Below, piece by piece: positions 1,158-27,120 of a DNA stretch of 38,586 bases (its first letter is position 1; each line of letters opens with the position of its first letter). The position numbers were made by a program, and so were the translations under genes. The DNA comes from Methylococcaceae bacterium (GTDB taxonomy: Bacteria; Pseudomonadota; Gammaproteobacteria; Methylococcales; Methylomonadaceae). The notes under the pieces were generated by a model. The model worked only from the letters and a program-made list of their open reading frames with translations, was not told where the DNA came from and searched no databases. The stretch is from positions 1 to 38,586 of the forward strand of contig JABFRM010000027.1 of NCBI GenBank assembly GCA_013141155.1. Reading direction: 5' to 3'.

Positions 1158-1165
1158 TACATAGC

Positions 1166-2251: not shown

Positions 2252-2260
2252 TGGAACATT
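2240..2260. repeat. Inverted repeat over the recF stop codon
   Basis: AATGTTC (2240-2246) and GAACATT (2254-2260) form perfect 7-base arms around a 7-base spacer that contains the recF stop codon. It lies 20 bases after parS and 28 bases before the gyrB start. The arms resemble the outer part of a parS half site, but the spacing is wrong and the CACGTG core is missing. It could be a weak ParB-related site, a gyrB leader hairpin or chance. Confidence 0.4.
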
Positions 2261-2275
2261 GTTGCAGTGATTTAG

Positions 2276-4699
<2,424 letters not shown>

Positions 4700-4701
4700 T
4701 T

Positions 4702-5484
4702 ATGCTGACCTACCCTCAAATTGATCCTGTCGCATTGGCGCTTGGACCGCTTAAAATTCACTGGTACGGCTTAATGTATTTAATAGGCTTTGCCGGAACT
4801 TGGATCATTGGCAAGAAAAAGGCCGAACAAGCGCAATCCCCCTTAACGCCGTTAGCTGTAGAAGACTTAGTGTATTACGGGGCATTAGGTGTAGTTTTAG
4901 GTGGAAGAATTGGCTATGTACTGTTTTATAACTTTAGCCAGTTTTTAGCCGAACCGCTCATGATTTTTAAAATATGGCAGGGTGGGATGTCTTTTCATGG
5001 CGGAATGTTGGGCGTATTTTTAGCGATGTGGTTGTTTGCAAAAAAACAGCGCTGCACCATGTTTGAATTAACCGATTTTATTGCCCCGATGGCACCGATT
5101 GGATTGTTGGCCGGACGCATTGGTAATTTTATTAATTCAGAATTATGGGGAAGGGTAACCGACGTGCCTTGGGCGATGGTATTTCCTAATGGTGGGCCGT
5201 TACCCAGGCATCCATCACAATTATATGAAGCTTTTTTAGAAGGTATCGTTTTGCTGGTGATTATGTGGCTCTATACCCGCAAACCAAGACCGGTTATGTC
5301 GGTCACAGGCTTATCCTTGTTAGGGTATGGCATCTTTAGATTTATTGTGGAGTTTTTCAGAATGCCAGATGCACATTTAGGCTATTTGGCTTTAGAGTGG
5401 GTCACTATGGGGCAAATACTGTCCATACCCATGATCATAATTGGTGGCGCACTAATTTATTTCGCGTACGCAAAAAAAGCATGA
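4702..5484 (+). CDS. lgt: Prolipoprotein diacylglyceryl transferase
   Basis: Inner-membrane enzyme that transfers diacylglycerol from phosphatidylglycerol to the lipobox cysteine of prolipoproteins, the first step of lipoprotein maturation. Family motifs are clear: [11 protein letters not shown] near the N-terminus, [22 protein letters not shown], the signature [14 protein letters not shown] and [14 protein letters not shown]. Several hydrophobic segments are spread along 260 residues, the usual size. It follows gyrB by 2 bases and its stop codon overlaps the thyA start (ATGA at 5481-5484), which indicates translational coupling. Confidence 0.97.
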
Positions 5485-6314
5485 AGCAATATCTGGATCT
5501 ATTACAAAACATCCTCGATCAAGGGTATACCAAAAGCGACCGTACCGGCAGCGGTACTTTATCTTTATTTGGTACGCAATTACGCTTTCCGTTACAAGCT
5601 GGATTTCCTCTAGTAACGACCAAAAAAGTTCATTTCAAGTCTATTGTTCATGAACTCTTATGGTTTTTAAAGGGCGACACCAACGTTGCTTATCTGCAAG
5701 AACATAATGTCAGTATTTGGAATGAATGGGCTAATGCGGAAGGGGAATTGGGTCCCGTGTATGGTAAGCAATGGCGTTCCTGGCCTACCCCTCATGGTCA
5801 ACTCATTGATCAAATAAAAACAGTGTGTCAACAAATCAAACAAACCCCTCACAGTCGCCGCTTAATCGTATCAGCATGGAATGTTGCCGACTTGCCGGAT
5901 GAAGGACTTAGTCCACAAGAAAATGTACTGCTAGGTAAAATGGCACTCGCGCCTTGCCACGCTTTATTTCAATTTTATGTCGCTGATGGACATTTATCCT
6001 GTCAATTGTATCAACGTAGTTGCGATACCTTTTTAGGCCTGCCCTTCAATATTGCCAGTTATGCCTTACTGACGCATATCTTGGCAGATCAGTGTAATCT
6101 ACAGGTGGGTGACTTTATCTGGACGGGGGGAGATGTGCATCTTTACTTAAATCATTTACAACAAGCTAAACTACAATTGGGTCGCCAACCTTTAAACTTA
6201 CCAACCCTCCAAATCAAACGTAGACCGAACTCAATTTTTGATTATTGCTATGAAGATTTTGAGTTAAATAATTACCAGTCGCACGAAGCCATAAAAGCAC
6301 AAATTTCAGTGTAA
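5481..6314 (+). CDS. thyA: Thymidylate synthase (ThyA type)
   Basis: Makes dTMP from dUMP using methylenetetrahydrofolate. The start at 5481 gives [15 protein letters not shown], the normal ThyA N-terminus, and overlaps the lgt stop by four bases; an in-frame start further upstream would lie inside lgt and adds non-homologous sequence. [12 protein letters not shown] (phosphate-binding arginine) and [12 protein letters not shown] are present. The nucleophile is Cys159 in [11 protein letters not shown], and [19 protein letters not shown] and the dUMP-binding [10 protein letters not shown] follow. At 277 residues it is slightly longer than E. coli ThyA (264), because of an insertion before the catalytic cysteine (around [15 protein letters not shown]). 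Confidence 0.97.
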
Positions 6315-6336
6315 ATATTAAATCGAGAATATTTAC
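6311..6336. terminator. Possible shared terminator hairpin between thyA and the convergent dehydrogenase gene
   Basis: GTAAATATT (6311-6319) and AATATTTAC (6328-6336) pair perfectly with an 8-base loop, starting at the thyA stop codon. The stem is AT-only apart from its outer pair and no long T tract follows on the plus strand, so termination would be weak. It lies between two convergent genes, where a bidirectional terminator is expected. Confidence 0.35.
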
Positions 6337-6343
6337 CATTGCT

Positions 6344-7201
6344 TTAAGTTTTTACCTTCAGACGATACAGTGCTGAAATATCTTCATCCCCATAACCATC
6401 CGTAATCAGTTGCGTATAATCCTTGACAGTTACATCAATCAACGGCAAAGATGCACCATTTTGTTTTGCCATCGCCTGACAGATTTTTAAGTCTTTATGA
6501 TGTAAAGCCAGTTTAAAACCGGGTTTAAACACGCTTTGGGTCATCGATAAACCACGATGTTCTAAAAACCAATTACCTGCCGCCCCTCCACCTATCACTT
6601 CAATCACCTTGGGTAAAGGTAATTGTTGTGCGGCTGCAAAAGCCAGCGCTTCGGTAACCGCTTGATTAATACCCGCCGCCATTATTTGGTTGACTGCTTT
6701 GGTGCCTTGCCCTGTACCCGTAGGCCCCATGTGAATGATACGTGTTGCCAGTGTTTCTAAGAGTGGATGCACTCTACATAAAGTTTTGGTTTCACCGCCA
6801 ACCATCATAGATAATGTACCTTTTTGGGCGCCTTCAACACCACCTGAAACGGGTGCATCTAAAAATGCCACCTGTTTTTCTGCCAATTTTATGGCCGCCA
6901 GTATCGCGGTAGCGCTGCTAACGGTAGACATATCCACCACAATACTATCGGGTTTGATCGTATTAACGATAGCATTGATAATGTCTATCACATCTTGATC
7001 CGCCGAAACACAGATAAAGACCACTTCGACTTTTGCGGCAAGTGCCTCTGGCGAGTCATAAGCCAGCACTTGTAATTCTTTTGCCAAGGCAGTCGCTTTG
7101 GCTGGCGTACGATTATAAACAGCACTTAAAAATCCGGCTTGCGCTAAATTTCTTGCCATCCACTCGCCCATACTACCGAGTCCAATGAAGCCAGCTTGCA
7201 T
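6344..7201 (-). CDS. NAD(P)-dependent beta-hydroxyacid dehydrogenase family protein
   Basis: Member of the 3-hydroxyisobutyrate / tartronate-semialdehyde / glyoxylate reductase family. The N-terminal Rossmann fingerprint GFIGLGSMGEWMARNLAQAGF begins at residue 4. The substrate-binding stretch DAPVSGGVEGAQKGTLSMMVGG is near 118-139, the catalytic lysine segment GTGQGTKAVNQIM is near 161-173, and the C-terminal LALHHKDLKICQAMA is typical of the family. The length of 285 residues is standard. It begins 2 bases after the speA stop codon, so the two genes form an operon. The substrate cannot be fixed from sequence: glyoxylate, tartronate semialdehyde, succinic semialdehyde and 3-hydroxyisobutyrate are all handled by close relatives. 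Confidence 0.9.
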   Translation of the reverse strand: MQAGFIGLGSMGEWMARNLAQAGFLSAVYNRTPAKATALAKELQVLAYDSPEALAAKVEVVFICVSADQDVIDIINAIVNTIKPDSIVVDMSTVSSATAILAAIKLAEKQVAFLDAPVSGGVEGAQKGTLSMMVGGETKTLCRVHPLLETLATRIIHMGPTGTGQGTKAVNQIMAAGINQAVTEALAFAAAQQLPLPKVIEVIGGGAAGNWFLEHRGLSMTQSVFKPGFKLALHHKDLKICQAMAKQNGASLPLIDVTVKDYTQLITDGYGDEDISALYRLKVKT

Positions 7202-7203
7202 GG

Positions 7204-9060
7204 CTATTTCTCCAAATAGGTGTAAGTAGTTAAACCCGCAGTCAACTCCTGCAAATAGGCTACCCGTTGTGTTTCACTTAAGGGGCTTTGTGCTAATTTT
7301 TGTTGATAGGCTTGCTTTAGTTCGCTGCTGTCAATATGTACATACGCCAATAGTTCATCCACATGCTCGCCTTCGCTGAAGTCTGAAAAATGGTAAGTTT
7401 GATCAGCGCCTAAGCGGATATTAATGGCGTGCGTATCACCGAATAAATTGTGCATGTCGCCGAGAATTTCTTGGTAAGCACCCAATAAGAAGAAGCCAAT
7501 CAAGTAAGGCTGTGCCGAATCAATTTTATGCAAAGCCATGGTTTTTTCAATATTTTGGCCATCCACATACTCATCAATACGCCCATCCGAATCACAGGTT
7601 AAATCTTGTAACACCGCGCGTCGATCCGGCTGTTCGTGCAAACGGTGGATAGGCATGATTGGGAAAATTTGCTCAATCGCCCAGGAATCAGGCATGGATT
7701 GAAACAACGAAAAGTTACAAAATATTTTATCCGCCAACTTTTCTTTTAATTCCTCCATAGTTTTTTGATGGCTGTGAATATCTGGGTTTAAGCGTTCAAC
7801 GGTATAGCGACACAATTGCAGATAATGACTTTCAGCATCTGCCAGTGCTTGTAAACTCACCTCGCCTTGAATAAAACGGTTGCGCGCTTCTTGCACGGTA
7901 AATTGTCCATCATGGTACTGTTCCAGCACGTTTTTCTGCTTGAATTGCTGCACGCTGGCTGCTTGCAACTCAGGTATTGCTTCTGTATCTGTAACATTGG
8001 TGATTAACACCGCATGATGTGCGGTAATCGCGCGGCCGGACTCAGTAATAATGTTCGGTTGCGGCAATTGATGTTGTGCGCAGACTTCCGTAAAACTACG
8101 CACAATATTATGGGCATATTCATCCAGACTGTAGTTGATTGAACAATCACGTCGAGAAGCACTGCCGTCATAATCCACCCCTAGCCCACCGCCGGTATCG
8201 ACCACTTGAATAACTGCGCCTAAGTGATGCAGTTGTACATAAAATTGCCCAGCTTCTTTCAGCGCCATTTTAATATCATGGATATTTGCAATTTGTGAAC
8301 CCATGTGGAAGTGCATGAGCTTTAAAGTATCCAATAAATTCGCTGCCCGCAAATCGGTTAGTAATTGCAAAATATCACTGGCGTGGAAACCAAATTTAGA
8401 TTTTTCACCGCCGCTGTTTTGCCATTTACCCGCACCCAAACTCGATAAACGCACGCGTACGCCTAGCTGGGGTTTTATCTGCATTTTAGTGGATTCTTCG
8501 ATAATCAGGCTTAGTTCTGACGGCTTTTCAATGACGATGAAAACATTTAAACCCATCTGAATACCAATCAGTGCCAGCCTTATATACGCGCGGTCTTTAT
8601 AGCCGTTACACACGATGGTGGATTGCAATCCAGATTGTTGTTTCGCCAAACCCAATATTGCCAATAATTCCGGCTTGCTGCCTGCTTCCAGACCAATGGT
8701 GTCTGCCGCTAAAATGCCTTCAACTACTTGCCGTTGCTGATTGACTTTAATCGGATAAACTGGCGTGTAACACCCTTGATAATGCTCAGCCAGCATCGCT
8801 TTTTTAAACGCTGCATGTAATTGATCGACCCGATCTTTTAAAATATCCGTAAATCTAACTAACACGGGCAATGAGTGCCCTTGCGCGGTTAACGTTTCGG
8901 CAATGTCATATAAATCCAGCTCAAGGTCGCTGTCGGGAGATGGCTTGACCGCCACATGTCCATGGGTATTGATCGAAAAATACCCACCACCCCAGTTATT
9001 AATGGCGTAGATTTGTGCAGATTGTGCAATTGTCCAAGAATTGGAAGGGTTAGAACTCAC
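7204..9060 (-). CDS. speA: Biosynthetic arginine decarboxylase
   Basis: PLP enzyme converting arginine to agmatine, the first step of the agmatine route to putrescine. Motifs in order: NWGGGYFSINTHGHVAV; the PLP lysine segment PVYPIKVNQQRQVVEG; GLEAGSKPELLAIL; IVCNGYKDRAYIRLALIG; GEKSKFGFHASDILQLL; LMHFHMGSQIANI; VDTGGGLGVDYDG; and NIITESGRAITAHHAVL. GTG at 9060 is preferred over an upstream ATG at 9099: GGAG lies 7 bases before it, and the protein then begins near the family start. That gives 618 residues, close to E. coli SpeA (658). The gene downstream encodes a dehydrogenase 2 bases away. Confidence 0.96.
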   Translation of the reverse strand: MSSNPSNSWTIAQSAQIYAINNWGGGYFSINTHGHVAVKPSPDSDLELDLYDIAETLTAQGHSLPVLVRFTDILKDRVDQLHAAFKKAMLAEHYQGCYTPVYPIKVNQQRQVVEGILAADTIGLEAGSKPELLAILGLAKQQSGLQSTIVCNGYKDRAYIRLALIGIQMGLNVFIVIEKPSELSLIIEESTKMQIKPQLGVRVRLSSLGAGKWQNSGGEKSKFGFHASDILQLLTDLRAANLLDTLKLMHFHMGSQIANIHDIKMALKEAGQFYVQLHHLGAVIQVVDTGGGLGVDYDGSASRRDCSINYSLDEYAHNIVRSFTEVCAQHQLPQPNIITESGRAITAHHAVLITNVTDTEAIPELQAASVQQFKQKNVLEQYHDGQFTVQEARNRFIQGEVSLQALADAESHYLQLCRYTVERLNPDIHSHQKTMEELKEKLADKIFCNFSLFQSMPDSWAIEQIFPIMPIHRLHEQPDRRAVLQDLTCDSDGRIDEYVDGQNIEKTMALHKIDSAQPYLIGFFLLGAYQEILGDMHNLFGDTHAINIRLGADQTYHFSDFSEGEHVDELLAYVHIDSSELKQAYQQKLAQSPLSETQRVAYLQELTAGLTTYTYLEK

Positions 9061-9190
9061 TATTACTCTCCGTATAGACTTCATAAATGCCCATATCATA
9101 GCCTTTTTTACATTGACTACAGAAATTCTGCCGCTTGATGCAAATAGGTAAGGAGGGGATTTTAGTTGACGTGCGATGATTCAGTTTTAG

Positions 9191-9218
9191 CTGGTTGCCA
9201 AGCGCCTGTGGCAACCAG
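9191..9218 (-). terminator. Hairpin downstream of the dienelactone hydrolase gene
   Basis: CTGGTTGCCA (9191-9200) and TGGCAACCAG (9209-9218) pair perfectly over 10 bases with an 8-base loop. It lies just past the stop codon of the minus-strand hydrolase gene and before speA. The following minus-strand sequence (CTAAAACT) has no good T tract, so this may be a transcript-stabilising or Rho-assisted end rather than a strong intrinsic terminator. Confidence 0.5.
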
Positions 9219-9240
9219 TGTAAAATGAAGATGTTTTAAT

Positions 9241-10032
9241 TTAATGGCGACTTTCAGCAGCCACGCCATCTGCGAGTACGTCAAGATCGCCCCAACCTAA
9301 GCGACGATGAAACAACTCCAGTAACAAGCCCCAACTTTGTAAAGCTAATGCCGGATCGTAGCGTGGGCCTTCATCGCGCATGAACGCATGTTGACCATTG
9401 ACCTCATGCCAAGTAAACCGCGCGCCCACTTCTTCAAGACGGGCTTTGAGCAGATTGCGGCCTTCCAATGGAACGTGTGGATCTTGGCGTCCCCAAATGT
9501 GCAAGAGTTCACCTTTTATTTCACTGGCGCGATCCATAGAATTGTCATTTGTGCCTAAACCTAAGCCTTTTTTATGAATATCCGTGGCATAGAAGCAGGT
9601 TGTCGCCAATACGTCTGGATTCATAGCGGCGCGGAATGCCAAGTGTCCGCCGATGCAAATACCCATTACCCCAAGACGTCCCGTGCAATCTTCGCGTGAT
9701 TTTAGATAATCCAGCACGGCGCGGGCATCGCTATCATAAGCTGACAGCTCCTTAGTAATCTTATGTGAATTGCCACGCGTGGTGCCTTCCTCGTCATACG
9801 CAAGCACCGTCCCTGCTGGTTCCAGCTCATGGTAAATTTCTGGGCAAGCCACAATAAAGCCATGTCCGGCTAGCATCGCTGCGGTGCGACGGATAGGGCC
9901 TGTTACTTGAAATATTTCTGAAAACATCAAGATACCTGGATATTTTCCAGGTGCTGCTGGGCGAAAAATATGCGCGCGCATATCACCGGTAGGGGTATTG
10001 ATGTCCGCAATTTCATGGTCTTTGATAATCAT
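9241..10032 (-). CDS. Dienelactone hydrolase family alpha/beta hydrolase
   Basis: Predicted cytoplasmic alpha/beta hydrolase with a cysteine nucleophile. FSEIFQV carries the family glutamate, MGICIGGHLAF the nucleophile Cys, GRQDPHVPLEG the Asp and NGQHAFMRDEGPRYDP the His, completing the dienelactone hydrolase catalytic set. The start at 10032 (MIIKDHEIADINTP) is chosen because AGGA lies 8 bases upstream and family homology begins there; in-frame ATGs at 10101 and 10092 would add a non-homologous lead. Size is 263 residues. The real substrate is unknown, since many members act on esters unrelated to chlorocatechol breakdown. It is transcribed toward speA from a 530-base intergenic region it shares with the multicopper oxidase locus. 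Confidence 0.88.
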   Translation of the reverse strand: MIIKDHEIADINTPTGDMRAHIFRPAAPGKYPGILMFSEIFQVTGPIRRTAAMLAGHGFIVACPEIYHELEPAGTVLAYDEEGTTRGNSHKITKELSAYDSDARAVLDYLKSREDCTGRLGVMGICIGGHLAFRAAMNPDVLATTCFYATDIHKKGLGLGTNDNSMDRASEIKGELLHIWGRQDPHVPLEGRNLLKARLEEVGARFTWHEVNGQHAFMRDEGPRYDPALALQSWGLLLELFHRRLGWGDLDVLADGVAAESRH

Positions 10033-10564
10033 AGCGTGTCCTGTTAGGTGAGCTGAAACAAATAATGCAAAACAGTGATTATACGCAATCATCTGATGCA
10101 AAAGAACTATAACACCATGCGTTTGGCTTTCATTTTGTCAGTGATGATGTTTTTTGCCGTAGCGTTTTGCGTATGGCCTGCGGGTAATTGCGTGTGAACA
10201 GTTTTGTTATGCAAGTTTTTTGTGGACTGCGTCACAGATTATTTGTCAGTTGTGTGATACGCCCTATTTTTTAAAGCAGCAGTATTAGACTGGAAATACG
10301 GAATATTTTTAATTTAACTATATGATTATAAAATAAAATTAATAAATAACCGCCCCGTAAATTCAGCAAAATAGTAATGCCAGGTAGTCGAATTAGGTAT
10401 TTGCACTAGGTATTCGTACGGATATTTTCTTTATTCCCCTGAAAGTATCATGCGTCCAGCTAATTAAGAACTTAGCCAAATGTAACTTGCATGAATAGCT
10501 CGGCGAATAACCCGTTAGAAACAACTTTTATAAACTTTTAGAAAGTAAAAATAGGAAGGATGAA
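10033..10564. other. Intergenic region between the hydrolase and the multicopper oxidase locus
   Basis: About 530 bases separate two divergently transcribed units and should hold both promoters. AT-rich stretches occur at 10300-10345 and 10520-10550, but no hexamer pair is good enough to call. A 26-codon hydrophobic reading frame (10117-10197, plus strand) is present without a good ribosome binding site. A strong ribosome binding site, AGGAAGG, at 10554-10560 serves the gene starting at 10565. Nothing else is recognised. Confidence 0.6.
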
Positions 10565-10837
10565 ATGCAAAAAAATAAACTTGTAATTGGATTGTCTTTG
10601 ACAATTCTTGTTGGGCTTTGGGGAGGAGGTTTGGCTTATGCTGAAAGCGCCAGTTCATCATCTCAGAATTCGAAAAATAACGTTGACACTGTTAAGACCC
10701 AGAACAAAAGACAAAATGCGCAGCAATCTGCCCGAAAATTAGCGGCAGCTCACCTCAAAGCCAAATATAAAGCTGCTCGCGCCAATGAAATCGCACAGCA
10801 AGTAATTGAACATGGGCACCAAAGGAGTTCAAAATGA
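10565..10837 (+). CDS. Small exported basic protein, first gene of the multicopper oxidase locus
   Basis: Unrecognised 90-residue protein. Residues 1-26 form a signal peptide: a lysine-containing start, a hydrophobic core (LVIGLSLTILVGLWGGGL) and a probable cleavage after AYA. The mature part is short, rich in Ser, Asn, Gln, Ala and Lys, strongly basic and probably helical in its second half (ARKLAAAHLKAKYKAARANEI), ending in HGHQRSSK with two histidines. AGGAAGG lies 4 bases before the start. Its stop overlaps the oxidase start (ATGA at 10834-10837), so the two are translationally coupled. A role as periplasmic partner, copper carrier or assembly factor of the oxidase is inference from position. 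Confidence 0.8.
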   Translation: MQKNKLVIGLSLTILVGLWGGGLAYAESASSSSQNSKNNVDTVKTQNKRQNAQQSARKLAAAHLKAKYKAARANEIAQQVIEHGHQRSSK

Positions 10838-13800
10838 ACATCAGCTTAAAACGATCTATTCAACAACTATTATTAGCAAGTGGCACCGCTTTTGCCGCAA
10901 GCGCTTTAGCTGTCGTAGGACAACAAAATCCACCACCAGGTCCCGGTCAGATTCCAGATTACTTTGGTGTCACACCTAACTACGCCACCAGTCCACAGCC
11001 AATAATGGCGACTGTGACCATTACCGATCCAAGTGGGTTCGGTACAGGTGCTGTTGCTGCAGCGACTACCTATGATTACGCTACTGATGTTCAAACTGAC
11101 AAAATCATGGATGTCCAGGTGCTTAATCCCGGTAGCGGATACGTCGCAGGTACCACGGTAACTGTCACAGGTGGACCAGGCAGTTTACCTGTATCGTTAA
11201 CACCCATCATTGAATCTGGTCTTATTACCGGTTTTCAGGAAATACCCAGCGCAACTAACTTAGTTGCAAATTTTTCGGGGTTGGGTGGCAGTTTTAAAAT
11301 CCCTGTTGTAGGTTCCGGTATCCGTAAATTTGTTGACTCCTTGCCAGGACTTAATACGCCAAACAACTTGGGGCAACAAATGCCATTGGCTGTGGCTGAC
11401 CAGGCTACTTTTACGGGGTCTGATTACTACGAAATCGCTGAAGTTGAATATACCCAAAAATTGCATTCCGATTTACCCGCAACACATCTACGCGGTTACG
11501 TTCAGATTAAAACCGGAGGTTTTACCATTGCAGGCTTTAATGCAGCGGCCGATAAATTAGCCTATGCTAGCCAATATGCGGGTTACTTAGGCCCTGTCAT
11601 CGTGGCGCAAAAAGACCTGCCAGTACGTGTCAAGCTAGTTAACCTGCTCTCAACTGGCGCGGCTGGGAAATTGCCTGTCCCCGTCGATACCACTTACATG
11701 GGTGCTGACGGCGCTACCGATACTGACAACCGTACTTCTATGCACTTACATGGCGGTAATACCCCATGGATCAGTGACGGTACTGCACGCCAGTGGACTA
11801 AACCTGCCGGTGAAGTAGGCCCTAATAAAGGCGAATCTGCGCGTAGCGTACCGGATATGTGGTTCGATGCGTCAGGTGCTTTGTTACCTAACTCAGCTAC
11901 ATGTACGCAAGGCAGCACTATTTGCACGACCCCTGGCGCTACCAACTACCCAGGCGACGGCGCATTAACGTTCTTCTATACCAACGAACAAAGCGCCCGC
12001 TTGATGTTCTATCACGATCACGCTGAAGGCACGACGCGTCTGAATGTCTATGCGGGCATGGCTGCTGCCTATGTATTGCAAGATCCAACCGAACAGGCTT
12101 TGGTTACTGACGGCACACTGCCTTCTCTGGCTGATACGATCCCATTGGTTATTCAAGAAAAAACCTTTGTACCGGATCAAACCAAACCGGTATTAAACTT
12201 CTATGGCCCGTTTGCTTCACAACTGCAATCCCAAGATCCAACCTGGCGTTGGGGTACAGGTACAGTCGCTACCGGCGTAATGGGTAATGGTGATTTGTGG
12301 GTTCCGCATGTATTTATGCCTAACCAAAACCCAGGCGATATTTCTGGTGCCAATGCCGTAGGACGCTGGGATTACGGTGCGTGGTTCTGGCCTCCATTTG
12401 CTAACCTGCAAAATGGTCCGATTGCCAATCCCTATTTCGATCCTGCCTGTAATACCACGACCAGTTATTGCGAAGGCCCCGAAATTCCAGGTGTACCAAA
12501 TGGTAGTTTGCAAGCGGTATTAAGTAATAGTGTCGCAGGTGGTGTTCATGATGCAACCAAAGGCGGCGCAATTACCGAATCACCTTCTGCCACACCTGAA
12601 GCGTTCAACGACACCCCGTTGGTTAACGGTACTGCGTATCCGTACATAAACGTTGATCCTAAAAAATACCGTCTGCGTATTCTCAGTGTCGGCAACGACC
12701 GTATGCTTAACCTGTCTTTAGTAGTGGCGGCAAGCAAAAACTCGGTGACTACTGCGGAAGCCAATGCTGGTGCAACTGGTGTGGCTGCCATGTGTAACGG
12801 TACCACAGCAGTATCGAATAACCCTGCGGAATGTACCGAAGTGAAAATGGTACCGTTTACTGCAACACAAAATGCGGCTACCAACACACCTTTCCCAAGC
12901 CATTGGTATACCCAACAAAAAGGCGGGGTGACTTTTGATGGTCGTCCTTCAGGTGTTTTTGATCCAAAAACACGCGGCCCAGCCATGGTACAGATTGGTA
13001 CCGAAGGCGGCTTCTTATCGTCACCGGTCACGATCAAAAACCAGCCGGTTAACTACGAGTACAACCCTAAAAACATCCTGATCGGTAACATCAAGGAACA
13101 TGCCTTATTGTTAGGGCCAGCAGAACGTGCCGATGTCCTGGTGGACTTCAGCCATTTTGCCGGTTCCACACTGATCCTGTACAACGATGCTGGCGCCCCG
13201 GTTCCCGCTTGGGACTTACGTCTGGATTATTACACTGGCAACTTTGATAACACCGATACTGGTGGTGCATTCTCAGTTATCCCTGGTTACGGTCCTAACA
13301 GCCGCACCTTAATGCAATTTCGGGTAGCTGCCAATGGTGCTGGTTCAAACAACACCCACCCTGTGGATGATCTAGGCAGCATTAACATGGCTACTTTGAC
13401 GCCTAAGATACAAAATGCGTTCAAAACCAGTCAAGAGCATATTGTCGTTCCACAGTCTGCGTATAACGCTGTTTACGGTATCAACGCAACGGATGCGGTA
13501 GGCAAAGACTTGTCATCGATCTTCAGCACCCGGCTTAGCTATAATCCGCTGGTAAAAAACCTAGATGGTACCTTTGGCCTATCGGCATTAGTCAATCTGG
13601 AACTGGAACCTAAAACGATTATCGAAGACTGGACCATGAACTGGGGTCGGATGAACGCCTTATTGGGTACTGAAGTGCCACATACCACGGCGATTAACCA
13701 AACTTCTATACCCCAAGCGTTTGTTGATCCACCGACCGATTTAGTTAAGATCACACCTAACGACAATATGGTTCCAGTATCAGGTACTTTAGCGGATGGC

Positions 13801-15900
13801 ACACAGTTGTGGAAAGTAACCCATAACGGGGTGGATTCACATTCTATCCACTTCCATTTGTTCCATGTGCAGCTGGTTAACCGTGTGGGTTGGGATGGTG
13901 CGATCTATCCACCAGAAGCTAACGAACTGGGCTGGAAGGACTCTGTGCTGATGCATCCTCTATCTGATGTTATCGTGGCGATGCGTCCGATGGTTATGAA
14001 AGGCTTACCGTTTAAAGTGCCTAACAGCCATCGTTTACTGGATCCAGCAAAACCAGCTGGCGGTCCTTCGGAGTTCTTCAACTTCAATCCGCTAACCGGT
14101 AATGCATCAAACGTGACAAACGTACAAGTCAATTACGGTTGGGAATATTTGTGGCACTGTCATATTCTGGGTCATGAAGAAAACGACATGATGCGCTCTA
14201 TTGCGGTTGCCCAACCACCGGAAAAACCAACGGCGTTAGCTGCAACCACAGCAGCAACGGGCGTTAAACTGGACTGGACGGATAACTCTATTATCTCCAA
14301 CTCAGTGACCATCCAACGCTCTACCTCGCCAACGTTTGCAACTGTAGACGCCTACTTTAATGTTGTTGAAGAAGAGTGTGCCGTACAAGCAGGCTGTGCC
14401 AGAACCTATATCGATACCACCGCGCCAGCAGCTACCGATGTGTACTACCGCATTATGGCTAACAACACGGTAGGGGCAGGTGACGGCAAACTGGATGCAC
14501 CACGCAATGCTGATGGCTCTTATGGTGGCACATTACCTGTTGAATTATCTACATTAACACCTGGTTTAGCCGGTTATGCTAACGTAACCGCTAACTCAGA
14601 TTGGTCTGCTCCGGCTTTACGAATGACCAGTCCAACAGCTACGGTAACTGCTGGGCCTCTGGCATTTGGTAATCAAGTAGTTAACACAACCAGTGCAGTG
14701 CAAAACGTAACGGTAACCAATACGGGTACAGCTAATCTGGCTATTGCAAGTGTAGCGTTATCCGCTCCTACTAGCTTTGCCATTACCAACGGCTGCCCTG
14801 CAAGTCTGGCACCTGCGGCGAGCTGTAATATCGGCGTGACATTCACCCCGACTGTGGCAGGTGCTTTAGCTGATACTTTAACCATCACTGATAATACCGG
14901 TGGTGTAGCAGGTACTCAGCAAACAGTACAATTGTCAGGTAACGGTACGGTTTCTACACCTATCGCTGGTGTGTTGCCTGCTGGACCCTTAACATTTGGT
15001 AACGTGAATGTTGGCTCAATCAGTGCTATACAAACGGTAACTCTGTCCAATTCGGGTACGGCACCATTGGCTATCACCAGTATCGTAGCACCGGCGCAAT
15101 TCGCTCAAACAAATACCTGCGGCGCTTCCTTGGCAGTTGGTACAAACTGTGCGATTAACGTAACCTTTAATCCAACGGTTGCAGGCACTGCTACGGGTGA
15201 CTTAACCATCACCGACAACACCAATGGCATCGCAGGTAGCACACAAATGGTGGCAGTGTCCGGTACCGGGGTGGCAGTCGTGCCAGTGGTTCCTGCAGTT
15301 CCAACCGTGGTTCGGGATACTTTTAACCGCGCTAATGCCATTACTTTGGGTGCTACTTGGCAGCAGACTAACCTCCCTTTGGTAGGGGCGGTGCTGCGGA
15401 CGAATAACAATCAAGCTAGAGCAAATTTGGCAGGTACTACCGGTTACGCTTACTTCAATACCGTTGGAGCAGCAACTCAAGGTGCAGGCTTCACTTTCGC
15501 TAACACGACAGTCAATAACACTGCCCTGTTCTTGAAAGCAACCGGTCCTATAGGTGTTCTTGCCGTAAGTGGTCAGTTACAAAATGCCATCCGAGTGCAA
15601 TATAACGCCGGCAACGTGACCATAGCCACAACCAACAATGGTGACGCATTAGTACCTACCTATACTACTGTAGGGGCTGCAATCCCTACCGGCGGTAATT
15701 TGGTCAATGGTAATGGATTGCGGACTGCGGTAGATAACACCGGTAAAGTATGGGTTTGGAAAGTAGTAGGTGCTACAACCACTCTATTAACACCAGCCGG
15801 TGTGCAATTGCCTAACGTCGCTTTATGGACAACAGGCGGCGGCAAGGTGGGTATGCAACTTCCCAATGGTGCAATAGTAGACAACTTCGTCGCCTACTAA
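10834..15900 (+). CDS. mofA: Giant MofA-like multicopper oxidase (putative Mn(II) oxidase)
   Basis: Exported multicopper oxidase of 1688 residues, far larger than laccases (about 500) and near the size I recall for Leptothrix discophora MofA (about 1660). A signal peptide spans about residues 1-26 (cleavage near SALA). Copper ligands are complete: HLHG at 304-307, HDH at 394-396, HSIHFHLFH from 1003 and HCHILGHEENDMM from 1108, giving the type 1 Cys1109 with Met1119 as likely axial ligand. The last two motifs lie about 600 residues after the first two, so large insertions sit between. After the oxidase come a fibronectin type III-like domain (about 1128-1220), two Ig-like choice-of-anchor D repeats (about 1270-1370 and 1380-1475, each with GPLxFGN and ASCNI/TNCAI patterns) and a C-terminal beta-rich domain (1494-1688) beginning RDTFNRANA. 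PPIase and cytochrome genes downstream match the mofABC order. Substrate is unproven; iron or copper oxidation is possible. Confidence 0.88.
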   Translation: MNISLKRSIQQLLLASGTAFAASALAVVGQQNPPPGPGQIPDYFGVTPNYATSPQPIMATVTITDPSGFGTGAVAAATTYDYATDVQTDKIMDVQVLNPGSGYVAGTTVTVTGGPGSLPVSLTPIIESGLITGFQEIPSATNLVANFSGLGGSFKIPVVGSGIRKFVDSLPGLNTPNNLGQQMPLAVADQATFTGSDYYEIAEVEYTQKLHSDLPATHLRGYVQIKTGGFTIAGFNAAADKLAYASQYAGYLGPVIVAQKDLPVRVKLVNLLSTGAAGKLPVPVDTTYMGADGATDTDNRTSMHLHGGNTPWISDGTARQWTKPAGEVGPNKGESARSVPDMWFDASGALLPNSATCTQGSTICTTPGATNYPGDGALTFFYTNEQSARLMFYHDHAEGTTRLNVYAGMAAAYVLQDPTEQALVTDGTLPSLADTIPLVIQEKTFVPDQTKPVLNFYGPFASQLQSQDPTWRWGTGTVATGVMGNGDLWVPHVFMPNQNPGDISGANAVGRWDYGAWFWPPFANLQNGPIANPYFDPACNTTTSYCEGPEIPGVPNGSLQAVLSNSVAGGVHDATKGGAITESPSATPEAFNDTPLVNGTAYPYINVDPKKYRLRILSVGNDRMLNLSLVVAASKNSVTTAEANAGATGVAAMCNGTTAVSNNPAECTEVKMVPFTATQNAATNTPFPSHWYTQQKGGVTFDGRPSGVFDPKTRGPAMVQIGTEGGFLSSPVTIKNQPVNYEYNPKNILIGNIKEHALLLGPAERADVLVDFSHFAGSTLILYNDAGAPVPAWDLRLDYYTGNFDNTDTGGAFSVIPGYGPNSRTLMQFRVAANGAGSNNTHPVDDLGSINMATLTPKIQNAFKTSQEHIVVPQSAYNAVYGINATDAVGKDLSSIFSTRLSYNPLVKNLDGTFGLSALVNLELEPKTIIEDWTMNWGRMNALLGTEVPHTTAINQTSIPQAFVDPPTDLVKITPNDNMVPVSGTLADGTQLWKVTHNGVDSHSIHFHLFHVQLVNRVGWDGAIYPPEANELGWKDSVLMHPLSDVIVAMRPMVMKGLPFKVPNSHRLLDPAKPAGGPSEFFNFNPLTGNASNVTNVQVNYGWEYLWHCHILGHEENDMMRSIAVAQPPEKPTALAATTAATGVKLDWTDNSIISNSVTIQRSTSPTFATVDAYFNVVEEECAVQAGCARTYIDTTAPAATDVYYRIMANNTVGAGDGKLDAPRNADGSYGGTLPVELSTLTPGLAGYANVTANSDWSAPALRMTSPTATVTAGPLAFGNQVVNTTSAVQNVTVTNTGTANLAIASVALSAPTSFAITNGCPASLAPAASCNIGVTFTPTVAGALADTLTITDNTGGVAGTQQTVQLSGNGTVSTPIAGVLPAGPLTFGNVNVGSISAIQTVTLSNSGTAPLAITSIVAPAQFAQTNTCGASLAVGTNCAINVTFNPTVAGTATGDLTITDNTNGIAGSTQMVAVSGTGVAVVPVVPAVPTVVRDTFNRANAITLGATWQQTNLPLVGAVLRTNNNQARANLAGTTGYAYFNTVGAATQGAGFTFANTTVNNTALFLKATGPIGVLAVSGQLQNAIRVQYNAGNVTIATTNNGDALVPTYTTVGAAIPTGGNLVNGNGLRTAVDNTGKVWVWKVVGATTTLLTPAGVQLPNVALWTTGGGKVGMQLPNGAIVDNFVAY

Positions 15901-15966
15901 GCATCATACAGGTTGGGTTGCAGCGGTATCGCAATCCAACCATTCCTTTAACTTTATAGCTAAATT

Positions 15967-15993
15967 CTGGTCAACTGAAGTTCAGTTGACCAG
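15967..15993. repeat. Perfect 13-base-arm palindrome after the oxidase gene
   Basis: CTGGTCAACTGAA and TTCAGTTGACCAG are exact reverse complements around a single G. As RNA this makes a stem of about 11 pairs with a 5-base loop. It lies 67 bases past the oxidase stop and is the first of three hairpins in the gap. It could protect the oxidase mRNA 3' end or be an operator for the next gene. Confidence 0.6.
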
Positions 15994-16009
15994 ACCAAAA
16001 AGAAACAAG

Positions 16010-16034
16010 ATCGCCAAGGATGGCGATTTTTTTT
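16010..16034 (+). terminator. Intrinsic terminator after the multicopper oxidase gene
   Basis: ATCGCC (16010-16015) pairs with GGCGAT (16022-16027) across a 6-base loop, followed by a run of T to 16034. This is a standard Rho-independent terminator for the plus-strand oxidase transcript. It should reduce read-through into the PPIase gene, which either has its own promoter or is expressed at a lower level. Confidence 0.82.
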
Positions 16035-16071
16035 GGATTAAGCCGGTTGCTTTTCGACTTAATCCAAAAAA
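16027..16071. repeat. Third hairpin after the oxidase gene
   Basis: The T tract of the terminator plus GGATTAAG (ending 16042) pairs with CTTAATCC plus an A tract (16058-16071), an inverted repeat of about 14 bases with a 15-base loop. Read on the minus strand it also resembles a terminator, so the gap between the oxidase and PPIase genes is insulated in both directions. Bases 16072-16270 hold no further feature that I recognise. Confidence 0.55.
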
Positions 16072-16270
16072 ATAATAACATTCCGCAGAATACTTTTAAT
16101 AAAAAACCAAGCGCAATATTTATTGCAGCTTTGGCATTATCAACTACACTTAAAAAACTTAACTCAGCACGGTTTGATTAAAGCCAGTCAAACTTATCGC
16201 TGCCTCACAACACCAAACTGCTTGTTAACGCAGAGGTTATCCGCAACTACCATTAATTATGAAGGTAAAA

Positions 16271-17035
16271 ATGACCGTAAAAACGCAATTGAACGGATTG
16301 GCAGCCTTATTCATCGGCTGCACTTTGATGCCAATGGCGCATGCCGCACCCAAACAACTAAAATCTGTAGCGCAGCCCACGCCTGCTAAGGCTGAAAAAC
16401 AAGACAAACAAAAAGTCAGCTACGGTATTGGCGTTGACATGGGTAGAAATTTCAAGCGCCTGGGTCTTGATCTGGATTTGAATCTGATAACCGAAGGGCT
16501 CAAAGATGCCTATACAGGTAAGAAACTCAGCATTCCCGATAACGAGCTACGCAACATCATGAGCGCGTATCAAAATGAACTTAAAGAAAAACAGACCAAC
16601 GCAATAAAAAACATCGGTGCAGAAAATCAAAAGGCCGGTGAAGTTTTTCTGGCCAATAATGCCAAACAAGCAGGCGTAGTAAGCCTACCTAGCGGATTGC
16701 AATATAAAATAGTCAAAAAAGGTGACGGTAAAATACCGGTTGAATCAGACACCGTGGAATGCAACTACCGGGGGACACTGATCGACGGCACCGAATTCGA
16801 TAGTTCAACGCGTATCGGTAAACCTGTGCAATTCAAAGTAGGTGCCATTATGCCAGGCTGGCAGGAAGCATTGAAGTTAATGCCAGTAGGCTCAAAATGG
16901 CAGCTCTTTATTCCGTCACAACTGGCCTATGCTGAACGAGGTGCTGGTCGAGACATCGGCCCCAACTCAACCTTAATTTTCGAGGTCGAACTAATCAGTA
17001 TTCAAGCAGGCGGCGCCAAACCGGCTGCACTATAA
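16271..17035 (+). CDS. Periplasmic FKBP-type peptidyl-prolyl isomerase (MofB-like)
   Basis: FkpA/Mip-type folding catalyst. ATG at 16271 is preferred over ATG 16259 because GAAGG at 16261-16265 is a ribosome binding site placed 5 bases before it. The 254-residue product has a signal peptide (LAALFIGCTLMP, cleavage near AHA) and an N-terminal helical dimerisation domain (VSYGIGVDMGRNFKRLGLDLDLNLITEGLKDAY, then SIPDNELRNIMSAYQNELKEKQ). The C-terminal FKBP domain begins at LPSGLQYKIVKKGDG and includes VECNYRGTLIDGTEFDSS, MPGWQEAL and IPSQLAYAERGAG. Its position after the giant oxidase matches mofB of Leptothrix discophora, also described as an FKBP-type isomerase. A role in folding the oxidase is inferred from position. 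Confidence 0.93.
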   Translation: MTVKTQLNGLAALFIGCTLMPMAHAAPKQLKSVAQPTPAKAEKQDKQKVSYGIGVDMGRNFKRLGLDLDLNLITEGLKDAYTGKKLSIPDNELRNIMSAYQNELKEKQTNAIKNIGAENQKAGEVFLANNAKQAGVVSLPSGLQYKIVKKGDGKIPVESDTVECNYRGTLIDGTEFDSSTRIGKPVQFKVGAIMPGWQEALKLMPVGSKWQLFIPSQLAYAERGAGRDIGPNSTLIFEVELISIQAGGAKPAAL

Positions 17036-17107
17036 ATTAAGTAAAAATTCATAACTAAATTAAAACCTGAGTTAGGGAACTATATTGGTAACTGAAGCAA
17101 AAAAGTG

Positions 17108-17204
17108 CGTCATACCCGCCGGGAAGCGGGTATCCAGTGCCAAGGATGGCAAGCTCCGAGACATCCCTGTAGCCTGGATTCCGGCAATCCCTGCCGGAAT
17201 GACG
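17108..17204. repeat. Palindromic intergenic repeat element (MITE/REP-like)
   Basis: A block of about 97 bases with imperfect inverted ends. The left end reads CGTCATACCCGCCGGGAAGC and the right end, as reverse complement, CGTCATTCCGGCAGGGATTG; each end also contains its own smaller hairpin (ACCCGC/GCGGGT and TTCCGGCA/TGCCGGAA). Pieces of this form (CATTCCGGCAGGGATTGCCGGAA) are, from general knowledge, dispersed in many gammaproteobacterial genomes. It lies between the PPIase and cytochrome genes. A reading frame passing through it from TTG 17085 is an artefact. No second copy occurs in this window. Confidence 0.72.
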
Positions 17205-17276
17205 ACTTTTAAAAACAGTTGCACGTACTTACTTAACTATTCGATCTGCCCGATTCAATTTAATAAGGAGAAATAC

Positions 17277-18959
17277 GTGCTTTTACACCCTGCCTCTGTT
17301 CCAGGTACACGCCAGGAATTTTCATGGTTTTTATCCAGCCAACGCTTGTTATTGTTATGTCTGGTTACGCTGGTCTCTGTCGTGCATGCCGAACTCCCTG
17401 CGCCAGATAGCACGGAAGTGGAACTGGGCAGGCGTATTTATATGGAAGGCGTTTCAGCTTCCGGCGCACCCTTACAAGGTAACCGTGCCAATTCTGGTCA
17501 AATTGAAGGGGCAGCAGCAGCCTGTGAAACCTGCCATCGCCGCAGCGGCATGGGCAGTTTGGAAGGTAATGTTGTGGTTACGCCCATCACCGGTAATTTT
17601 TTGTTCGCCACCGAAGAAAATCGTCCGATTGCTTTAGTAGATCAACGCGCGCCTAAAAACATATCCCGGGCACATGCGCCTTATACTGAAGCTTCCCTTG
17701 CCAAAGCCATTCGCGAAGGCATTAATGTCAGTGGCCGTAAACTCAGCCCATTGATGCCGCAATACGCATTAACCGATGTTGAGATTAAGGCGGTTGCCGC
17801 ATACTTGAAACGACTGTCTGCAAAATTGTCGCCCGGTGTTGGCGAAGACACCCTGCATTTTGCAACTATCGTAACACCCGGTGTCGATCCAAAAGCACGG
17901 GAAGTGATGGTAAACATGATGCGCGCCGCATTTTCACAACGTAATGCAACCCAGGAAAACTACTCTGGTCGTATGCGTATGCCTATCGACCTTATTCCGC
18001 GCACCTTACGCAATTGGCAATTATCGGTTTGGGAATTGCAAGGCGCACCGGAAACTTGGGGCGCACAATTAGCAGAAAAATACCGTCAAGAACCGGTTTT
18101 TGCGGTTATTTCCGGACTTTCAAACGGCAGTTGGACGCCTGTGCATAATTTTTGTCAGCAAGAAAAACTACCCTGCTTGTTACCCAATGTTACTTCACCG
18201 CCTGCGGAAACAGCTTTTTATTCCCTCTATTATTCTCGCGGTGTAGCACTCGAAGCAGACGTTCTAGCCAGGCATTTACGCAATCAGGAAAAAAAGGCGC
18301 CGCAACGCGTGTTACAAATATATCGGGATGATGAGCTAGGAAAAGGTGCGGCAGAGGCATTAACTAAATCTTTGCATGATTCAGGAATTCAGGTTGAAAA
18401 TCGGGTGTTACAAGGACAAGACCCATCAGGCTTGAAGCAAGCACTGAAAGGTGTTTCCAGTAAAGATGCCGTGATGTTGTGGCTAAATCCAACCGATTTG
18501 GCAGCGCTTAAAAAAGCAGCCCCAAAACAAGTACCTGCCATCGCCTATGTTTCCGGCTTTTTAGCAGAGGAAAGCTATAGCGTTGTTCCTAAAAAATGGA
18601 ACGCTCATACGCGCGTCGTTTATCCGTATGAATTGGGTGAAAAACGCCAGAAAAATGCGCAATCCCTGAAAAAATGGTTACAGACCTGGAATTTACCACT
18701 GGTTAACGAAGCATTACAAACAGAAGTTTTTTTCAACCTGCTGTTCTTAACTGATCTTACTTCGCAAATGCTGGATAACCTCTACCGTGATTATATGATA
18801 GAGCGTGCAGAGGATATGTTAAGCCTGGGTTCCAATGTGTCGGCCTATCCGCACTTAAGTATGGCGCGCGGACAACGCTTTGCTTCCAAAGGTGCCTATA
18901 TTGCGCGCTTAGCCAAAGATGGCAAATTGGTGGCTGATTCAGAATGGATCGTACCGTAA
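17277..18959 (+). CDS. c-type cytochrome domain fused to a periplasmic-binding-protein-like domain (MofC-like)
   Basis: Exported 560-residue protein. GTG at 17277 is the start because AAGGAG ends 6 bases before it; the in-frame sequence further upstream translates the repeat element. A signal anchor or peptide (LLLLCLVTLVSVVHA) is followed by a cytochrome c domain with the single haem motif CETCH (Cys83, Cys86, His87) and a likely axial methionine in SPLMPQY. The rest (from about residue 200) resembles a type I periplasmic binding protein of the branched-chain amino acid receptor class: FAVISGLSNGSW, a two-lobed alpha/beta pattern, and ends with FASKGAYIARLAKDGKLVADSEWIVP. Leptothrix mofC is also described as a haem-binding protein after the isomerase gene. 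It could take electrons from the oxidase or sense a ligand; both are inference. Confidence 0.87.
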   Translation: MLLHPASVPGTRQEFSWFLSSQRLLLLCLVTLVSVVHAELPAPDSTEVELGRRIYMEGVSASGAPLQGNRANSGQIEGAAAACETCHRRSGMGSLEGNVVVTPITGNFLFATEENRPIALVDQRAPKNISRAHAPYTEASLAKAIREGINVSGRKLSPLMPQYALTDVEIKAVAAYLKRLSAKLSPGVGEDTLHFATIVTPGVDPKAREVMVNMMRAAFSQRNATQENYSGRMRMPIDLIPRTLRNWQLSVWELQGAPETWGAQLAEKYRQEPVFAVISGLSNGSWTPVHNFCQQEKLPCLLPNVTSPPAETAFYSLYYSRGVALEADVLARHLRNQEKKAPQRVLQIYRDDELGKGAAEALTKSLHDSGIQVENRVLQGQDPSGLKQALKGVSSKDAVMLWLNPTDLAALKKAAPKQVPAIAYVSGFLAEESYSVVPKKWNAHTRVVYPYELGEKRQKNAQSLKKWLQTWNLPLVNEALQTEVFFNLLFLTDLTSQMLDNLYRDYMIERAEDMLSLGSNVSAYPHLSMARGQRFASKGAYIARLAKDGKLVADSEWIVP

Positions 18960-18995
18960 ACCCACTACAAATAAACACTATAATTTACTGGAAAT

Positions 18996-19622
18996 ATGAT
19001 GGTTCACTGTAATCAAATGCACGATTTAATGGGTAAATGGATTGCACAAACACTGTTTTGCTGTGCAATTTTGGTTTCGTCAACGCCCTTGATGGCGGAG
19101 GAAATGAATAAGGTAGCTGAATTTAATCGTTCCGTTGCCAATTATGAGGTACCCAAGCTTACAGTGGTGCGCAATGATGGGCAGAAACTACCTTTTATCA
19201 AGGAGCTGGATGATGGCAGGCCGGTAATCATGAATTTTATTTTTGCCTCCTGTTCGGCAATTTGCCCGATGATCACGCATGTGTTTGCCAAAGTGCAAAG
19301 CAAATTAGAAACAGACAGCCAAAAAGTTCACTTAGTGTCAATTTCTATTGATCCAGAAAACGATACGCCAACAAAACTAAGCGAATATGCCAAAAAATTT
19401 GGGGCAGGGCCAAATTGGAATTACTACACCGGCACAGTAGAAACCAGTATTGCCATCCAAAAAGCCTTTAATGCTTATCGCGGTGACAAAATGAACCATG
19501 CTTCCCTTATTTTAATGCGTGCGGCACCAGGTAAACCCTGGTTACGCTTAGAGGGTTTTGTGAGTCCTGATACCGTTGTCAATGAATACCATAATATGAT
19601 GCAACAGGCTGTTGTAAAATAA
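18996..19622 (+). CDS. Sco1/SenC/PrrC family copper chaperone
   Basis: Thioredoxin-fold copper protein, 208 residues, exported or membrane-anchored (hydrophobic IAQTLFCCAILVSSTPLM near residues 16-33). The copper-binding motif C-x3-C-P is at Cys86 and Cys90 (FASCSAICPMI), and the third ligand is His168 in MNHASLIL. SISIDPENDTPTKLSEYAKKFG is the other family signature. It starts 36 bases after the cytochrome gene, probably in the same transcript. Sco proteins supply copper to cytochrome oxidase CuA or act as thiol reductants; here the neighbours suggest delivery to the giant multicopper oxidase. Confidence 0.92.
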   Translation: MMVHCNQMHDLMGKWIAQTLFCCAILVSSTPLMAEEMNKVAEFNRSVANYEVPKLTVVRNDGQKLPFIKELDDGRPVIMNFIFASCSAICPMITHVFAKVQSKLETDSQKVHLVSISIDPENDTPTKLSEYAKKFGAGPNWNYYTGTVETSIAIQKAFNAYRGDKMNHASLILMRAAPGKPWLRLEGFVSPDTVVNEYHNMMQQAVVK

Positions 19623-24543: not shown

Positions 24544-25716
24544 TCATTGGCGGCGATCAGATATTGCAATGGATTTAATGTCTTGAGTGCGAACAGTGTT
24601 ATGTTTTTTCACAAGTTGGTAAAAATCAAATCCACCACCACCTTCCCAGCATATATCCTTCGAAATTCCGCCATCTTCACCTTGAACAACTAACTGGAGT
24701 CGTTTTACTGCATAGTCAATTATATGATCTCCAATATCAATTCCTATATATTTTCTATTCATCTTGTGAGCCGTTGACAACGTACTCCCAGAACCAAGGA
24801 ATGCGTCTAAAACCAAATCGTTTTCATTAGTTGCTATATCTAAAATTCTTTGAATAAGTCGTTCTGGTTTTGGTGTATCAAAGACAGGCATGTTGTGAAA
24901 TAGTTTTAGAATATGTTTTTTGGCTTCTTTGGTAGTTCCTACATCCTTGCCAAGCCAAATTGTTTCTGGAGTAACGCCTGCTTTGGCTGTTACTAAAAAC
25001 TTCTTAATTCTTGGGACGCAATTACCATTTGTACCAAACCAAATATTTTTATCATCTATTTCTTTTAACATTCTGCTTTCGTTATAAACCCAACATCTTC
25101 CGTTTGGGGGTAAGTGTTTTTTCCCGGAAGGGGATGTAATTTCATAAAATTGTGATGCTACTGCATGACCTGCTTGAACATTAGCCGAAACTGACTGCCA
25201 TAACCCTCTAGGGTCATTATCAGGATTCTTATATCTTGCAAGAATTTCCTCAGTAATTGGTAATAAGTTTCTGGTTTTTTCAAAAAGTTTCTTGTTTGCC
25301 GCATAGACTAGAATATACTCATGATTATTAGAAAATACTTTTCGATTTTCACGAGTCGTTCTTTGTTGCCAAATTATTGTAGTAACAAATTTTTCTCTCC
25401 CAAATATTTTATCTGCAGCTACTTTTAAATAATGCACCTCGCTGTCGTCAATAGATATCCATATACTGCCATTATCGCTTAATAGTGGTTTAAGTTTATA
25501 TAAAATTTCTGAAATATTATTTATCCAATCTTCATGACTGGATTGATCATCATAATGCGTATATTTCTCGCCATTGTTATACGGAGGATCAATATATATA
25601 CACTTAACTTTATTATTATACTGACTGAGCTCGTCAAGTACATTGAAACTATCACCATGTATAATTTTGTTTTCGGTGTCGACAAAAACCGAGTACTTAT
25701 CAATTTTTTCAAGCAT
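24544..25716 (-). CDS. Beta-class DNA methyltransferase (second methylase of the R-M operon)
   Basis: SAM-dependent amino-methyltransferase of 390 residues. The catalytic motif IDPPYNNG (Asp43-Tyr46) comes first and the SAM-binding motif VLDAFLGSGSTLSTAHKMNRKYIGIDI comes near residue 305-330, so motif order is IV then I, the beta class (as in type III Mod subunits and many type II enzymes). DPPY is more usual for N6-adenine than N4-cytosine, but does not settle it. The recognition region would lie between the motifs. It is the last gene of a minus-strand operon, 22 bases after the D12-class methylase. Confidence 0.9.
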   Translation of the reverse strand: MLEKIDKYSVFVDTENKIIHGDSFNVLDELSQYNNKVKCIYIDPPYNNGEKYTHYDDQSSHEDWINNISEILYKLKPLLSDNGSIWISIDDSEVHYLKVAADKIFGREKFVTTIIWQQRTTRENRKVFSNNHEYILVYAANKKLFEKTRNLLPITEEILARYKNPDNDPRGLWQSVSANVQAGHAVASQFYEITSPSGKKHLPPNGRCWVYNESRMLKEIDDKNIWFGTNGNCVPRIKKFLVTAKAGVTPETIWLGKDVGTTKEAKKHILKLFHNMPVFDTPKPERLIQRILDIATNENDLVLDAFLGSGSTLSTAHKMNRKYIGIDIGDHIIDYAVKRLQLVVQGEDGGISKDICWEGGGGFDFYQLVKKHNTVRTQDIKSIAISDRRQ

Positions 25717-25738
25717 TTATAAAAAATCCAATTCAACT

Positions 25739-27118: not shown

Positions 27119-27120
27119 TA

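Follow-up and report, generated by a model that had tools for sequence, protein, structure and literature searches.

The window, by which we mean the whole 38,586-nucleotide stretch of DNA analysed here, carries five genes on the forward strand that encode, in this order, a small basic leader protein, a very large multicopper oxidase, an FKBP isomerase, a cytochrome and an SCO copper protein. By a modest degree, we favour reading these genes as a mof/OmpB-type locus, in which an exported metal oxidase would be served by FKBP, SCO and MofC helpers and the leader would be a detached N-terminal segment of the oxidase. The leader is probably such a segment or a subunit, and not part of a copper-loading arm as an earlier note on this DNA had supposed. 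All five reading frames reported in that note exist, on the forward strand and at or close to where it had placed them; only the start of the cytochrome gene had to be moved. The features of the locus are as follows.

10565 to 10837, forward strand: leader, a 90-residue exported basic protein with an RKLAAAHLK segment, signal peptide to about residue 26, mature pI 10.5
10834 to 15900, forward strand: MofA/OmpB-family multicopper oxidase of 1688 residues (~173 kDa), Sec-type signal peptide without twin arginine, mature pI 5.0
11743 to 11754, forward strand: copper motif A, HLHG, oxidase residues 304-307
12013 to 12021, forward strand: copper motif B, HDH, residues 394-396
13840 to 13857, forward strand: copper motif C, HSIHFH, residues 1003-1008
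14155 to 14190, forward strand: copper motif D, HCHILGHEENDM, residues 1108-1119, type 1 copper with axial Met
14653 to 15264, forward strand: two ASH/HYDIN-type Ig-like (choice_anch_D) domains, about residues 1274-1477 (Pfam/NCBIfam)
15436 to 15891, forward strand: C-terminal module, residues 1535-1686, which recurs in other large exported ORFs
16007 to 16038, forward strand: terminator-like hairpin and T-run between the oxidase and FKBP genes
16259 to 17035, forward strand: MofB-like exported FKBP peptidyl-prolyl isomerase, 258 residues (Pfam/NCBIfam FKBP_N and FKBP_C)
17096 to 17185, forward strand: one of 18 copies of a dispersed repeat in the genome, taken by mistake into the earlier cytochrome ORF
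17277 to 18959, forward strand: MofC-like exported protein of ~560 residues, GTG start, single-haem cytochrome c and Peripla_BP_6 domains
18996 to 19622, forward strand: SCO1/SenC copper protein, 208 residues, motif CSAIC (Pfam/NCBIfam)

The sequence comes from a Methylococcaceae bacterium (GCA_013141155.1, contig JABFRM010000027.1, draft genome of 3.55 Mb). Given that this genome contains two PmoA/AMO-family genes and that the closest relatives of the oxidase belong to Methyloglobulus and other Methylococcaceae, both in the tree and among the best 80 of 563 relatives from a contig search, the host is a type I methanotroph. No Burkholderiales were found among these best 80. At a threshold of 1e-20, 17 of 201 family genomes had an oxidase match; the oxidase core was matched in about 13 besides the host, and the remaining matches concerned C-terminal modules only. 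Thus, being present in only ~13 of ~200 family genomes, the mof locus is an accessory trait. Elsewhere in the window, chromosome-core genes lie near the mof locus (dnaN and gyrB, then lgt, at 129-5484), and a low-GC region at 24544-28245, which encodes a PLD-like protein and two DNA methyltransferases (N6_N4 and D12), is possibly a restriction-modification island.

The leader and the oxidase are tightly linked. In the window the stop codon of the leader overlaps the start codon of the oxidase as ATGA, an arrangement found in 14 of the 17 loci with a leader/oxidase junction, the acidobacterial locus L058 included; a one-base overlap occurs in two others and a three-base gap in one. A leader lies directly 5' of every oxidase of the methanotroph clade whose 5' side is complete. 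The leaders are basic, whereas the window oxidase is acidic. It should be noted that no Pfam family matches either the leader or the corresponding fused segment described below. A chance ORF was considered and ruled out by the homologues at the same site and by their conserved junction with the oxidase.

To map the operon genes across loci, we used HMMs built from the methanotroph proteins. The neighbours that the earlier note expected of relatives, mofB- and mofC-type genes, are indeed present. The complete leader-oxidase-FKBP-MofC-SCO set occurs in L043, L044, L047, L050 and L127, and the oxidase-FKBP-MofC-SCO order in these same methanotroph loci, in L130 and L144, and in L124 from another gammaproteobacterial family. 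A second methanotroph clade (L130, L143 and L144) and other gammaproteobacteria (L124, L139 and L142) have oxidase-FKBP-MofC(-SCO) arrangements that lack a leader. Conversely, L045, L048, L053 and L054 carry the leader and the oxidase without FKBP, MofC or SCO genes downstream within the available sequence; since the pair occurs without these genes, no other gene is as closely associated with the oxidase as the leader. In the tree, the window oxidase falls within a clade of methanotroph and Thiodictyon sequences (support 100), the second methanotroph clade lies apart, and the Geomonas oxidases are located elsewhere than the window clade; both methanotroph-containing clades show the mof-type gene order. 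An additional MofC and SCO pair lies upstream of the mof operon in Methyloglobulus (L043, 6215-8734).

Relatives from other phyla for the most part lack a leader gene, but their oxidases have a longer N-terminal extension. An unsupervised motif search was carried out on 52 N-terminal extensions from other loci, from the signal peptide to PDYFGxxPNYANSP. The first de novo run had returned PDYFGxxPNYANSP itself, the start of the mature oxidase, and the run upstream of it returned the leader motif. The top motif, RITxADRQAAAxRA, reached a log-likelihood of ~475, as compared with best values of 186-209 in five shuffled sets, and has good sites in 27 of the 52 extensions. The held-out leaders L057 (Thiodictyon), L058 (acidobacterial), and L048 and L050 (both methanotroph) matched it with p<=0.0015 against composition-preserving shuffles; most other leaders scored between p 0.003 and 0.03, and four were not significant. 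The window leader itself matches the fused motif weakly (p=0.05) and is tied to it through relatives, L057, L058, L064, L048 and L050 having strong matches. Moreover, in oxidases of the split type, the N-termini themselves give low scores for the motif.

A matrix made from the fused sites only was then scanned against 9,103 ORFs. Ten non-oxidase ORFs reached the threshold, six of which are small ORFs directly 5' of an oxidase (L057, L064, L058, L074, L050 and L048); the others are one frameshifted oxidase N-terminus (L078) and three unrelated ORFs. These matches indicate a separate leader form in at least three distant lineages. In L078 (9701-13905), from a Sulfotelmatobacter MAG, the oxidase is spread over two ORFs by a frameshift. 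Related loci yield p-values that depend on one another, and it was inspection of these very loci that gave the first hint; we therefore rest the case on the motif found de novo and on the scan of ORFs. Taken together, the motif match to the fused extensions and the scan indicate that the leader is probably a detached oxidase segment. The structure model of a fused homologue (pLDDT 49) was too poor to place the segment. Many family members, including those of Neobacillus, Geomonas and the second methanotroph clade, carry neither the leader nor the fused segment, which is thus not essential to every oxidase.

As described in the earlier note, the oxidase is a giant four-motif enzyme: HLHG, HDH, HSIHFH and HCHILGHEENDM are all present in the usual A-B-C-D order. 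Among solved structures, its nearest are CotA laccases, which are also the closest by sequence, and bilirubin oxidases. For the core, an AlphaFold2 model (993 residues, mean pLDDT 75) matched CotA laccase in Foldseek with an E-value of 5e-38 and a target TM of 0.78, and about half of the 993 modelled residues are insertions without a counterpart in CotA. As modelled, the oxidase is an enzyme of CotA-laccase fold with intact copper motifs. Together with the signal peptide, the four motifs bear out the idea of an exported copper enzyme in a gammaproteobacterium. The lack of a twin arginine in the signal region suggests that the oxidase is exported unfolded via Sec, which would fit a need for folding help from the FKBP and for copper delivery by SCO. 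Tat export was ruled out for the window oxidase on the same ground; a twin arginine does occur in a few relatives.

The same genome harbours a second copper-oxidase cluster (L128, contig C95, 1-19000). Here, three adjoining multicopper oxidase ORFs (1378-2790, 2814-4148 and 4136-6613) are followed by a subtilase (7234-9933) and a MofC-like cytochrome (9946-11610), and an ORF at the contig edge has its C-terminal module in common with the window oxidase.

The three downstream products are what they had been taken for, an exported FKBP, an exported single-haem protein and a Sco protein, as indicated by their Pfam/NCBIfam domains, by a single haem motif (CETCH) in the MofC-like protein and by CSAIC in SCO. 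The start of the cytochrome gene is GTG 17277 and not TTG 17085, because relatives of the cytochrome begin at the corresponding position, AAGGAG precedes the GTG, and 17096-17185 is the dispersed repeat, which lengthens the frame on the 5' side and misleads start calling. A single five-gene transcript is not certain given the terminator-like hairpin at 16007-16038. Because of this hairpin, the genes downstream may be transcribed separately or unevenly, but this is a suggestion only, as the number of terminator-like sites in the region does not exceed that in shuffles.

Could the likeness between the leader and the N-terminal segment be a convergence on a short, Ala-rich basic helix, the leader being an unrelated secretion or regulatory peptide? 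The motif is indeed short, with many Ala and Arg residues; taken alone, the window leader reaches only p=0.05, and neither form is covered by a Pfam family. We nevertheless hold this unlikely: six of the ten best non-oxidase matches among 9,103 ORFs are exported ORFs immediately 5' of an oxidase, in several separate lineages, shuffles of the same composition stay far below the real scores of L057, L058, L048 and L050, and the motif is poorly scored precisely in the N-termini of the oxidases that have a separate leader. A detached oxidase segment remains the reading that we retain for the leader.

As for the function of the enzyme, methanotrophs depend on copper, and a copper-handling or general laccase-type oxidase (acting on Cu(I) or phenols) could serve this high need; the adjoining SCO gene and the closeness to CotA laccases and bilirubin oxidases point that way. 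Such a role is rather improbable, as the sporadic presence of the locus (~13 of 200 family members) is a poor fit to a core copper function and the relatives described in the literature have been linked to bacteria that oxidise or reduce metals. Instead of oxidising Mn(II), the enzyme might, like OmpB, be an outer-surface copper protein that exchanges electrons with Fe(III) or Mn(IV) minerals, for instance while methane is oxidised under oxygen-poor conditions. OmpB of Geobacter sulfurreducens, a MofA homologue, is needed for the reduction of insoluble Fe(III) oxides and is clustered there with a MofC homologue and SCO (PMC5566968); relatives of the window oxidase also occur in Geomonas and other anaerobes. 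However, the window has an FKBP gene, as in Leptothrix, while the OmpB cluster of PMC5566968 has none, the Geomonas relatives sit in a different part of the tree, and the PmoA genes mark the host as an aerobic methanotroph. We regard this role, too, as rather improbable.

We thus return to an exported metal oxidase, for which Mn(II) or Fe(II) would be the likeliest class of substrate, Mn(II) oxidation itself being put forward as a hypothesis. In the mechanism that we infer, Sec would export the oxidase unfolded, the periplasmic FKBP would aid its folding and SCO would help to load copper. Outside the cytoplasm, the enzyme would then take electrons from Mn(II) or Fe(II) and hand them to O2, and the MofC fusion of cytochrome and binding protein may carry electrons or sense the substrate. 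The leader, made by translational coupling, would bind the oxidase as a small basic subunit or an assembly factor. More tentatively, we propose that the leader serves the MofA/OmpB family as a dedicated small subunit, required for assembly or activation of the enzyme, and that its separation from the oxidase, or fusion with it, took place several times in evolution; methanotrophs that possess both proteins would oxidise Mn(II) or Fe(II), thereby linking the methane and metal cycles. MofA is the long-proposed, unproven Mn oxidase of Leptothrix. A conserved partner, translationally coupled to the oxidase here and part of the same protein in other phyla, offers a family marker and a concrete candidate for what may be missing when the oxidase is produced alone. 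Moreover, the presence of a mof operon in bacteria that live on methane hints that the methane and metal cycles may be connected in lakes, wetlands and groundwater filters.

The oxidase-FKBP-MofC-SCO set is a cluster of an already published kind. As the earlier note had recognised, the window follows mofABC of Leptothrix discophora SS-1, and likewise mof of Rubrivivax sp. A210 (PMC8218464), in gene content and order, with a very large multicopper oxidase, then mip/FKBP, then a cytochrome c; it is by this content and order that we liken it to L. discophora, whereas the host here is a methanotroph. In the open-licence literature we found no report of a mof operon in methanotrophs. The five-gene mof operon of A210 includes a copper chaperone and an exported protein (PMC8218464), but the latter, judging from locus numbers, is not directly 5' of mofA as the leader is here. 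Even in Leptothrix the role of MofA is still open, including whether its substrate is Mn or Fe (PMC11412304, PMC13386937). In He et al. 2017 (PMC5566968), the OmpB/MofA clusters of iron oxidisers and Geobacter comprise SCO1/SenC together with homologues of MofB and MofC, and MofC there combines the same cytochrome c and periplasmic-binding domains as in the window; these clusters belong to another host group, and the available text mentions no coupled leader. The Geobacter OmpB cluster, having MofC and SCO without MofB, does not match the window, where the FKBP gene is present. SCO, which the earlier note took for a new element, is not one, since PMC5566968 and PMC8218464 describe a copper chaperone in clusters of the mofABC type.

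With CotA laccase and bacterial bilirubin oxidase, the window enzyme shares the three-cupredoxin fold and the copper motifs. Unlike CotA, of ~500 residues, it has a core of ~970 in a protein of 1688, long insertions doubling the core and the Ig-like and C-terminal modules being added to it. In Bacillus, the small proteins MnxE and MnxF are encoded directly 5' of MnxG, a large Mn-oxidising copper enzyme with a domain make-up different from that of the window oxidase; the parallel concerns the way of working only. Set against the mof and OmpB accounts, as far as their available text extends, what is new here is the leader family and its split and fused behaviour.
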